A stretch of DNA of 40,433 nucleotides from Spirochaetales bacterium (GTDB lineage: Bacteria > Spirochaetota > Spirochaetia > Sphaerochaetales > Sphaerochaetaceae), in assembly GCA_012514185.1 (NCBI GenBank), contig JAAZAT010000070.1, forward strand, positions 1 through 40,433, given 5' to 3'. The notes beneath the pieces are model-generated. The model did not search any database. It was given only the letters and a program-made list of their open reading frames with translations, and was not told where the DNA came from. Both the position numbers and the translations under genes were made by a program. Of this stretch, positions 13,868-18,871 are shown one piece after another (position 1 is the stretch's first letter; each line of letters opens with the position of its first letter).

Positions 13868-15205
13868 TCACCTGCTCCTATCTCCAAGGATGTAGGACTT
13901 GGTTTTTCCTCGTCCCTTCACTTGCAGCATTCCCAGGTCGGTCATGTGCTTGGCAACAATATAAGCCCGGGTTCGTTTCACATTCAGCACATCCATCATT
14001 GTTTGCTCATCGATTTCCTGGTTTGCAGCTACATAGTCAAGAATCTTACGCATTTGGTCGGTGACATATTGGGTTTTACCGGGGGTGCCGTCCGATACCT
14101 CGTCGGCAGCACCTGCATGTTTTCTTGCGGAAATCATATTCACCAAGGTGATGCGAAATGAGTTGTCGGTAACCGCAATTTCAGGCTTGATAGGGCAATC
14201 GCGGTACAGGTCGTATATTCTCCGAAGACCTGTCCCATAGGCTTCTATATGTTTCAAGCGATAGAATATGTGTGCAAGCATCGGGTTTCTTGGTTGTGAT
14301 ATTCCGCTGAGAATATCTTCAGTGGTCAATCCAGGAACAAGACCTCCCATTGAGATGAACTGCATGTACTCTGCGTTTATATTGATTATGATGCTTCCGC
14401 TAAAGCTATAGTCCCTATGGACAATGGCATTCAACAAGGCTTCTCGTATGGCTTCTGGAGGATACTCCATTGTATCAATGCGATCCAAACCACGGATAAC
14501 GGATTCAGTTCGGTTATTAAGCATGCAATAGGTGTACGAGTCATTCAGTTGCTTGAAAATCGAGCCTTTGAATTCTCGCCTGTCTTTGAAAACAGTATTT
14601 GAGGAATTATCATAAACTGCAATTTTTACCGAATGTGTGCATTGGTCGGATAGCAAGAGCGCCAGATTGGTATACAGGCTTTCACCCGGATCGCGCAATC
14701 CCAATGCACGAAACTTGTCTTGCGAAAAAGAAACCTGTTTATTCTTGAATTCTGTCTTCGCACTGTCAAAAGTCAAATCCTGCAACAAGCTTCGTTTTGA
14801 TTCATATGAATCACCATCAGAAAGTTTTATTGCATTTCGAATGTGGTCCCACGTTGCAGGCGCGGTAACTGTTCCCTGTCTCACATATACCCCGGAAGGC
14901 TTTATCCCATGTCTTTTAAGAAAGTAAGGCTTGTTGATTCCTTCTCCGACAGATATCTTGATTATCTTGTTTTCCAATAACTCATAGTGTACGAACATCG
15001 TTACATCGGGCAGAATTGCGTCACGAAGTATGTTTGAAAGACGATTATATTCCGTATCAAGATTTTGGATTCCAATTTCATTTCCGACATCATCAATGCC
15101 GAGGTAGATGATACCGCCATGAGTGTTTGCAAAAGCAATCACTTCCTTGGCAATATCTTCGGTAAGGGACTGTTTGAACTCAACCGATTCACTCTCACAG
15201 AGCAT
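13868..15205 (-). CDS. AlbA_2/Schlafen-type ATP-binding transcriptional regulator
   Basis: 445 residues in three parts. An AlbA_2 (Schlafen-like) domain spans about 1-125 (ESVEFKQSLTEDIAKEVIAF, then ANTHGGIIYLGIDD). An HATPase_c_4-like region lies around 245-345 (REALLNAIVHRDYSFSGSI, SMGGLVPG, SQPRNPMLAHIF, EAYGTGLRRI). A C-terminal winged helix-turn-helix covers about 375-440 (EIDEQTMMDVLNVKRTRAYI). Proteins of this layout are predicted DNA-binding regulators; their signals are mostly unknown. The ATG at 15205 has GGAGG 7 bases upstream. The gene is preceded by a promoter overlaid by three copies of the GTGAATATTCAC palindrome, which fits autorepression by its own winged helix. Base composition is AT-richer than the genes on either side: the 60 bases from 14581 hold 19 G or C. 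This hints at transfer. Confidence 0.85.
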   Translation of the reverse strand: MLCESESVEFKQSLTEDIAKEVIAFANTHGGIIYLGIDDVGNEIGIQNLDTEYNRLSNILRDAILPDVTMFVHYELLENKIIKISVGEGINKPYFLKRHGIKPSGVYVRQGTVTAPATWDHIRNAIKLSDGDSYESKRSLLQDLTFDSAKTEFKNKQVSFSQDKFRALGLRDPGESLYTNLALLLSDQCTHSVKIAVYDNSSNTVFKDRREFKGSIFKQLNDSYTYCMLNNRTESVIRGLDRIDTMEYPPEAIREALLNAIVHRDYSFSGSIIININAEYMQFISMGGLVPGLTTEDILSGISQPRNPMLAHIFYRLKHIEAYGTGLRRIYDLYRDCPIKPEIAVTDNSFRITLVNMISARKHAGAADEVSDGTPGKTQYVTDQMRKILDYVAANQEIDEQTMMDVLNVKRTRAYIVAKHMTDLGMLQVKGRGKTKSYILGDRSR

Positions 15206-15244
15206 TGAAAGACCTCCAGAAAAGCGGTGTATCGAACTAGGAAA

Positions 15245-15273
15245 AGAATACCATGAATATTCACTAACAACAA
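15245..15273 (-). promoter_or_regulatory. Promoter of the AlbA/Schlafen regulator
   Basis: On the minus strand, TTGTTG (15268-15273), a 17-base spacer, and TATTCT (15245-15250), about 40 bases before the start codon. One operator copy lies inside the spacer and another overlaps the -35 box. Confidence 0.55.
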
Positions 15274-15305
15274 GTGAATATTCACTTGATTGTGTGAATA
15301 TTCAC
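15254..15305. repeat. Three phased copies of the palindrome GTGAATATTCAC (operator array)
   Basis: Copy 1 (15254-15263, TGAATATTCA) sits between the -10 and -35 boxes. Copy 2 (15271-15288) is an 18-base perfect palindrome, CAAGTGAATATTCACTTG. Copy 3 (15294-15305) is GTGAATATTCAC. The centres are 21 and 20 bases apart, close to two helical turns, so all three face the same side of the DNA. The array is a likely operator for the adjacent regulator. Confidence 0.8.
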
Positions 15306-16960: not shown

Positions 16961-18871
16961 CTAGATGCAACGCACTGCATGATAGCCGTGGTGGACGGCA
17001 CTGAGAATGTTGTCAGGATTCTCGGCATCGCCGACCAGTGCACAGTCGATCTTGTCGGAGAGTTGGTCGTACAAGACGGTGTTGGCCTTGTAGCCGGCTG
17101 CAATGGCAACCGTATCGGCTTCGATCGTGTGCTTCTTGCCGTCCTTCTCATACACTACCATTCCGTTTTCAAAGGCAAGCACCTTTGCACTGGTGATCGC
17201 CTCAACCTTGGAGTCCTGAATCAACTGCCTGAGTGCTTGGTCGTTGTTCTTGCTATGACTGGTGGTCATCAGGATTTCCGGCAGCATCTCGATCATCGTC
17301 ACCGATTCAGCACTTTGCGCTGCGTGACAGGCGGTCTCACAACCGACGAGGCCTGCTCCGACGACAACAACCTTCTTGCCGTAGCTCTTCTTGGACGTAA
17401 GCAAATCGTTTGCACCTACAACCCAACTCTGGTCGATCCCCTTGATCGGAGGCATGACAGGAGTCGCACCGGTTGCGAAAATCACCTTGTCATAGTTTCC
17501 TCTCAGAATCTCTTCGGCACTGCCATCCTTCATCAAGGAAACCTTCACCGTGCTGCGGTGCAGTTTCTGGACCAGGAAGTCCACATAGTCCTTCACATCC
17601 TTCTTGAAAGAAGGCCCGCCGGCTGCCAAAAGCAAGCCGCCCAATACGTTGCGCTTTTCCCACAGCTCGACCTGCATGCCTCGTTCGGCTGCGGTCAAGG
17701 CAGCGGTGATGCCTCCCGGGCCACCACCGACAACAAGCACACGCTTATTAGGAGCGACCGGTCCGAGCGGATAGTAATCCTCGGCAAATGCATGGGGGTT
17801 TACTGCACACTGGAGAATCTTGCCGCTGAAGCCGGCATACAGACACTCGTTGCACCCGATGCACGGGGTGATATCGTAGGTTTCGTTCTTCTTGACTTTT
17901 TGCACCCAGTACGGATCGGCAATCGCCATATGCCCAAGTCCGATCATATCCGCCTTGCCGTCGACCAACGCCGCTTCTGCATCGGCAGGATTCTGCATCT
18001 TGCCCTGGGAGAGCACCGGAACGCCGACATGCTTCTTGATCTCTGCGGCGATGGGAAGCTGCACCATCGCAGGCTGGTATACTGTATTGATCGCCTTGTA
18101 CCAGGCCTCATAACAACCCACGTCGACATGCAGGGCGTCGACACCGGCTTGTTCGAGAATCTTGGCCATCTCGATTCCTTCGGCAAGCTCACGTCCGCCT
18201 TCCACCCCATGGTACGGAGTAAATTTGAAGAGGATCGGGAAACCAGGCCCGACAGCCTCGCGGATGGCCTTGACGCACTCAACCGAGAAACGCATCCGAT
18301 TTTCAAGACTTCCCCCATACTCATCGGTACGGGTATTCCACATGGTTGACTGGAACTGGTCCATCAGGTACCCGCCGTAACCGTGAAGCTCGACGGCATC
18401 AGCACCTGCACGCTTTGCAAACGCTGCACCCTCGCCCATTTTATTGACCAAAAATTGAATGTCTTCCTTGCTGAACGCCTTGCACTTCAAGCCGGGGAAC
18501 CAGAAGGAATCGACTTCGCTGACCGAATAGGGACGTACATCGGCGGTGGTGAACTGCATTCTTCCAAGACCAGGCGTCAGCTGGATGCACAGCTTGGCCC
18601 CATGGTTGTGTACCCTGCGGGCGAGGAAGTTCATCTGCTCGAACGACTTTGCTGTACCGATGACGTTGCATGCTTTTGCCTCATACTGCATGGTTACCTG
18701 GTTGGCACCGGTGATGATGAGCCCAAAACCACCCTTCGCCCGTTCCTCGTAGTAACGGATCGAACGGTCTGAAAAGGAACCATCCGGTTCGGTCTGCGTT
18801 CCCATAGGAGCCATATAGATGCGGTTGCGCAACTTCATCGCTGCAATGTTTGTCTGTTCAAGTAACTTCAT
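16961..18871 (-). CDS. NADH:flavin oxidoreductase / 2,4-dienoyl-CoA reductase (enoate reductase) family protein
   Basis: 636 residues in the classic layout. An old-yellow-enzyme TIM barrel with FMN covers about 1-330 (MAPMGTQTEPDGS near the start, and VELHGYGGYLMDQFQ then RTDEYGGSLENR). A 4Fe-4S cluster loop follows, with Cys spacing CIGCNEC and a fourth Cys in LQCAVNP. An FAD/NAD(P) domain completes the protein (VLVVGGGPGGITAALTAAER and KVVVVGAGLVGCETACHAAQ). Family members reduce activated C=C bonds of enoates, dienoyl-CoAs or bile-acid intermediates in anaerobes. GGAGG lies 7 bases before the ATG. It is divergent from a TetR regulator and has a palindromic operator just downstream of its promoter, so it is probably induced by its substrate. 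Confidence 0.92.
   Translation of the reverse strand: MKLLEQTNIAAMKLRNRIYMAPMGTQTEPDGSFSDRSIRYYEERAKGGFGLIITGANQVTMQYEAKACNVIGTAKSFEQMNFLARRVHNHGAKLCIQLTPGLGRMQFTTADVRPYSVSEVDSFWFPGLKCKAFSKEDIQFLVNKMGEGAAFAKRAGADAVELHGYGGYLMDQFQSTMWNTRTDEYGGSLENRMRFSVECVKAIREAVGPGFPILFKFTPYHGVEGGRELAEGIEMAKILEQAGVDALHVDVGCYEAWYKAINTVYQPAMVQLPIAAEIKKHVGVPVLSQGKMQNPADAEAALVDGKADMIGLGHMAIADPYWVQKVKKNETYDITPCIGCNECLYAGFSGKILQCAVNPHAFAEDYYPLGPVAPNKRVLVVGGGPGGITAALTAAERGMQVELWEKRNVLGGLLLAAGGPSFKKDVKDYVDFLVQKLHRSTVKVSLMKDGSAEEILRGNYDKVIFATGATPVMPPIKGIDQSWVVGANDLLTSKKSYGKKVVVVGAGLVGCETACHAAQSAESVTMIEMLPEILMTTSHSKNNDQALRQLIQDSKVEAITSAKVLAFENGMVVYEKDGKKHTIEADTVAIAAGYKANTVLYDQLSDKIDCALVGDAENPDNILSAVHHGYHAVRCI

Follow-up and report, generated by a model that had tools for sequence, protein, structure and literature searches.

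A predicted autoregulatory operator array upstream of a gene for a Schlafen (AlbA_2)-HATPase-winged-helix protein

Results and Discussion

The 40-kb contig analysed here (40,433 nucleotides; hereafter the window) carries three palindromes upstream of the gene for P0001, a protein of 445 residues. Sequence comparisons make it highly probable that these palindromes are an operator array, to which the winged helix of the encoded protein binds and through which the gene is negatively autoregulated; the product is a predicted ribonuclease of the Schlafen type that also carries an ATP-binding domain. The evidence consists of the arrangement of the copies at the promoter, their recurrence before orthologous genes, their near restriction to the cognate promoter, and the dependence of the site on the C-terminal part of the protein.

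Palindrome array and promoter

The three copies lie within 15253-15305, 20-21 bp apart, and were recognized both by reading the sequence and by pattern search. The features at the promoter are as follows.

15294-15305: operator copy 3, GTGAATATTCAC, exact, upstream
15274-15285: operator copy 2, GTGAATATTCAC, exact, abutting the -35 box
15268-15273, minus strand: putative -35 box TTGTTG, read by eye (TTGTTA at the corresponding position of L016)
15253-15264: operator copy 1, ATGAATATTCAC, one mismatch, in the -10/-35 spacer; the orthologue L016, 80% identical, is arranged alike
15245-15250, minus strand: putative -10 box TATTCT, read by eye (TATTCT in L016, TATCCT in L019)
15213-15217, minus strand: putative ribosome-binding site GGAGG, read by eye

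The centres of the copies are at 15258.5, 15279.5 and 15299.5, giving steps of 21 and 20 bp. The initial annotation had described three palindromes with about these centres, and they were found again here. It had also placed one copy between the -10 and -35 boxes; copy 1 does lie inside the 17-bp spacer, though both hexamers are weak, TTGTTG matching the sigma-70 consensus at 3/6 positions and TATTCT at 4/6. A stricter promoter scan reported none. The palindrome is thus present in several helically spaced copies at the promoter of the gene that encodes the putative regulator itself, as is characteristic of an autoregulatory array.

The ARG box bound by ArgR is an 18-bp palindrome in which TGAAT and ATTCA stand four bases apart, and ARG boxes are paired 21 bp centre to centre. 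The sites upstream of P0001 share with them the TGAAT...ATTCA half-sites and the 21-bp centre distance. Identity with the ARG box was rejected, because the half-sites abut in all three copies and the ARG box needs four bases between them.

Domain organization and predicted fold of P0001

All three domains of the Schlafen (AlbA_2)-HATPase-wHTH family were found in P0001, together with the acidic residues of the Schlafen nuclease site.

13868-15205, minus strand: P0001 gene, 445 aa, AlbA_2 (Schlafen) - HATPase_c_4 - winged helix
14858-15196, minus strand: AlbA_2/Schlafen core, residues 4-116 (PF04326, E 2.1e-19, 70.6 bits, cut-off 25.3)
14144-14392, minus strand: HATPase_c_4, residues 272-354 (PF13749, E 3.6e-14, 53 bits, cut-off 26)
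13886-14059, minus strand: C-terminal winged helix, residues 383-440, from the predicted structure, with a CadC/MecI-like fold
13937-13975, minus strand: predicted recognition helix, residues 411-423; all 48 sequences have T412 and R413, and 414-416 covary with the operator

The structure prediction, which used 48 sequences, has a mean pLDDT of 76.5 with a poor stretch at 89-132. In the model, the winged helix is composed of helices 383-395, 400-407 and 411-423 and two strands. Residues 1-90 match Schlafen cores, human ones among them (SLFN5/11/13/14), with Z of about 9.5-9.9; for SLFN5 the values are Z 9.9 and rmsd 2.3 over 90 residues. Residues 199-357 match SpoIIAB (Z 9.6), and residues 371-444 match CadC (Z 11.3, rmsd 2.3, 74 residues) and MecI (Z 10.5). 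Most of the chain matches an uncharacterised structure, 3LMM (Z 22.7).

E4 and E9 are invariant in 48/48 sequences, and D38 is present in at least 90%. Residue 1 of P0001 aligns to SLFN11 206 in the aligned ranges, by which E4 and E9 would sit at 209 and 214. We take these positions to be those of the catalytic acidic residues of Schlafen nucleases. Since the N-terminal domain keeps the Schlafen acidic pair, P0001 looks like a self-controlling effector with predicted RNase activity. P0001 had initially been annotated as a regulator. Its predicted role in reading DNA is supported; with the acidic nuclease pair kept, the protein is probably an effector too.

Recurrence of the array before orthologous genes

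It is the recurrence before orthologues that we regard as the decisive evidence, at the level of sequence, for the array being real. In the relatives L016, L018, L019, L022, L027, and L047, two to four copies are present at 18-21 bp spacing. L017 has two copies that are spaced more widely. L023 and L049, close in sequence to P0001, are without the site, and both are incomplete reading frames. More distant relatives of P0001 are without the palindrome upstream.

A scan of one genome per species yielded 80 orthologues with 51-56% identity. After the removal of two loci with less than 140 bp upstream and of six redundant ones, 72 non-redundant upstreams remained. Exact YGAAWWTTCR is present in 70/72 of them; in 100 shuffle rounds the mean was 1.1 and the maximum 5. 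At least two sites were found in 47/72 upstreams and in none during 100 shuffle rounds. Spacings between adjacent sites, with one mismatch allowed, peak at 11 (36 times), 20 (21 times), and 30 bp (17 times), plus neighbouring values. By record title, the hosts are Bacillota in 76/80 cases and Spirochaetota, Bacteroidota, Synergistota, and Planctomycetota in one case each. Most of these records are metagenome-assembled, and odd assignments such as Planctomycetota may therefore be binning errors.

A match to a sigma-70 promoter, with no more than three mismatches, was observed in 71/72 orthologue upstreams, the promoter being taken as the best match in 150 bp, so that some may be due to chance. 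The sites are located directly upstream of the -35 box in 67/72 and in the -10/-35 spacer in 14/72. In most Clostridia they are only upstream of the -35 box, a layout that would be compatible with activation as well. With a 30-bp spacing, the -35 box can remain uncovered between neighbouring sites.

Occurrence in whole genomes

With at most two mismatches, the window contains four palindrome matches against a shuffle mean of 1.35; single sites therefore carry no meaning. In the 2.76 Mb genome, which is 86% complete, the exact 12-mer GTGAATATTCAC occurs only at 15274-15285 and 15294-15305. The 10-mer TGAATATTCA occurs at five places, three of them within the P0001 array. Eight near or core matches elsewhere in this genome (L001, L002, L007-L011, and L013) are divided into six in ORFs and two in intergenic regions, and single sites are scattered in four near-complete relatives. 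In neither this genome nor those four relatives is a wider regulon visible beyond the promoter of P0001 itself, so the regulon expected from a genome search was not recovered.

Arrays behave differently from single sites. They are not scattered at random in the genome of the window, in 60 related genomes, or in 392 Spirochaetota genomes. Tandem pairs were found in 8/60 related genomes; in seven of these the pair precedes the cognate gene, and in the eighth it is at an unrelated locus. The tandem pattern was found in 8/392 Spirochaetota genomes, three times in P0001-type arrays and five times elsewhere. Around those five (L180 and L275-L278), the stretch examined contained no significant relative of P0001 (best E 1.5); L275 is at a contig start, and its neighbourhood is thus cut. 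These five pairs are treated as chance or hairpins. Phage-borne decoys were considered as well: in the viral_contigs set, the tandem pattern has no exact match, and a scan with the P0001 protein gave two distant loci.

Winged helix and the specificity of the site

P0001 and L018, which have the site in common, are 54% identical in the N-terminal part and 36% in the C-terminal part. In comparison with L020, L045, and L046, which are without the site, the identity is 46-51% in the N-terminal part and 12-22% in the C-terminal part. In these sequences the specificity of the site tracks the winged helix, similarity in the rest of the protein being about equal. In L019:1501-2439 (G018), AlbA_2 is lost in frame, and the HATPase domain, the winged helix, and the operator array are kept. 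The L019 genome has downstream surroundings in common with the window.

Covariation was analysed with 164 sites, base 2 being mostly T (68%) or C (30%). Among 242 protein columns, residue 415 (Y vs F) best explains base 2 (F-test p 4.7e-14). Apart from 309, the nine best columns all fall within 392-422. This covariation between base 2 and the helix is confounded by descent. When independent contrasts were computed on a tree built from residues 1-370 (234 columns), 414, 416, and 415 were among the best four, and residue 143, outside the winged helix, ranked third. Helix 411-423 contributes ten of the 234 columns and accounts for three of the top five (hypergeometric p 5e-4). An independent-pairs test gave averages of 1.6 pairs in the same way and 0.1 in the opposite way, from only 3 supported pairs, with which significance cannot be reached. 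Operator base 1 and the central bases, tested in the same manner for covariation, do not point to the recognition helix.

The initial annotation had proposed an operator of the downstream gene that could define the DNA site of this protein. Recurrence, restriction to the cognate promoter, tracking with the winged helix, and covariation between base and residue strongly support that proposal.

Mode of regulation

It is very likely, judging from the sequences compared, that P0001 binds its own sites, and we infer that the binding is cooperative. The recognition helix 411-423 would bind each SYGAAWWTTCRS palindrome as a symmetric pair. Several P0001 dimers would align on one face of the DNA, in steps of 10-11, 20-21, or 30-31 bp. 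Such an array of dimers, covering the -35 region and the DNA immediately upstream, would keep RNA polymerase off. Repression by an array would be expected to look like this, with phased sites lying across a strong promoter, and autorepression is for this reason considered the most likely mode.

Positive or dual autoregulation is an improbable reading, in which the same sites activate, or the upstream sites activate and the spacer site represses. The position directly upstream of the -35 box, seen in 67/72 upstreams, is indeed common for activators. However, many such promoters match TTGACA/TATAAT with 0-1 mismatches and would thus hardly need an activator, and a spacer site is present in 14/72 upstreams and in the window. 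There is very little probability that some other, unrelated regulator of the host acts on the P0001 gene through these sites. Palindromic sites are common to many regulators, and single near-matches are present elsewhere in the genomes, but the site accompanies P0001 orthologues in several phyla and the arrays are nearly exclusive to the cognate gene. The site also changes with the gene's own winged helix, and base 2 covaries with the recognition helix. The chance that the repeats act as RNA, in a terminator or attenuator hairpin, appears slighter still. Neighbouring palindromes can pair, and 5/6 terminator-like matches fall on palindromes; against this, each copy is itself palindromic, the spacing is helical, and most orthologue copies are upstream of the -35 box and hence not transcribed from that promoter.

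Relation to known systems

The literature search found no operator of the AlbA_2-HATPase_c_4-wHTH family, subscription papers and preprints being thinly covered, so that this is no proof of absence. The exact 12-mer GTGAATATTCAC is present in four papers, which are unrelated by title. The site proposed here is a predicted DNA site for a protein of this family, for which we found none in print. It offers a lead to the sites of other members, namely to seek a repeat array upstream of each member's own gene. Proteins with helicase-like or ATP-binding annotations, which form a large group, may thereby become testable as self-regulated effectors. The pairing of one residue (Y/F415) with one base is a ready test of specificity.

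In autoregulated toxin-antitoxin operons, the harmful protein is linked to a repressor, which binds palindromic sites in the promoter of the operon. P0001 differs from them in that the putative effector and the putative repressor are one polypeptide. A speculative extension, to which we give a low probability, is that Schlafen-HATPase-wHTH proteins are one-polypeptide counterparts of toxin-antitoxin systems. An ATP-dependent protein array on the phased operators would silence the gene and hold the nuclease inactive; release, by a nucleotide change or a phage-derived signal, would derepress the gene and arm the effector at the same time. Each lineage would pair its own operator with its own winged helix. 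If true, there would be many mutually insulated switches, one operator-helix pair per lineage.

Bacterial proteins composed of a Schlafen RNase, a minimal histidine kinase, and a wHTH have been described (PMC12839542), and that paper cites a preprint on bacterial Schlafens in phage defence. P0001 is similar to these proteins in having three domains in identical order and in the invariant E4 and E9, which correspond in position to the acidic pair of Schlafens. Restriction genes among the neighbours are another likeness, between P0001 relatives and the proteins in the accessible part of PMC12839542, and a role of P0001 in phage defence may be considered. Unlike for the P0001 array, operators or autoregulation are not mentioned in the accessible part of that paper.

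TrlG of Photorhabdus, with AlbA_2 and HATPase_c_4, restricts growth at high temperature, according to the available text of PMC7554251. It has the same two Pfam domains as P0001 and is portrayed in that text as a growth-limiting effector, a likeness by description. Unlike P0001, TrlG shares its operon with TrlR, a small putative regulator that is encoded separately, and the available text of PMC7554251 reports no repeat array.

Arrays in the wider family

At least three copies of a repeat (p <=0.01) were found before 37/126 other family members and in 13/147 control promoters (Fisher 1.6e-5), a tally in which L033 and L054 are one gene counted twice and L228 and L232 belong to the P0001 clade. 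For at least four copies, the numbers are 27 of 126 and 4 of 147 (1.2e-6). After collapsing at 60% identity, at least three copies were present in 21/68 against 13/147 (p 9e-5) and at least four in 15/68 against 4/147 (p 1e-5); the motif used to sort the clade was widened between the family count (20 clade members) and the collapsed count (25). A smaller count, made first (29/77 vs 4/39), is superseded by the larger one. L146 was read from a frame interrupted by a stop, and the start assigned to it is unreliable. By this test 89/126 other family members have no array; the array rule is thus not universal, or the test is insensitive.

The arrays upstream of other members' genes include the following.

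L043, L151, L154, L155, L157, L161, L162, L164: TATCGGATA repeats before own gene
L144: ATGTCGGTTTA, six times before own gene
L034: 10-bp unit, four in tandem, before own gene
L170, L251 (different genomes): TTGAAGT units at 11-12 bp before own gene
L221: ATCGTTAATTCT unit, six times before own gene

The arrays of L144, L034, L043, L221, L251, and L170, which have other winged helices, mostly show 10-12 or 19-21 bp spacing. Of the same-strand spacings of at most 45 bp, 50/58 deviate from a multiple of 10.5 by no more than 1.5 bp, against 12/20 in positive controls and a uniform expectation of 0.38, the value of 50/58 being inflated by short tandem repeats of 9-12 bp. In L258, an 8-bp unit is present in eight tandem copies before a family gene, and its spacing is not helical.

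One control promoter, L088:3876-5256, has seven AATGGTGACA-like copies, and its gene is another AlbA_2/HATPase_c_4 member. It is a blind rediscovery of a family array and was kept among the controls in all counts. Another locus, L078:925-1978, has seven CATGAATTG-like copies before a gene without a Pfam match.

Gene neighbourhood

Clustering of 147 genes adjacent to the orthologues gave 135 clusters. The neighbours thus differ, and the site accompanies the gene rather than its surroundings. Forty downstream neighbours, taken from a list of 67, were scanned; 33 share the strand of the orthologue and seven do not. They include N6 DNA methylases (5), C5 methylases (2), N6/N4 methylases (2), and GmrSD (2), among which overlap is possible. 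By their sequences, these methylase and GmrSD neighbours fit defence islands. In some relatives, a restriction-modification or GmrSD gene comes next on the same strand, and a shared operon may also be under the control of the array there. In the window itself, the minus-strand gene at 16961-18871 encodes a flavin oxidoreductase, which resembles the models of BaiCD and the long-form bilirubin reductase below their cut-offs.
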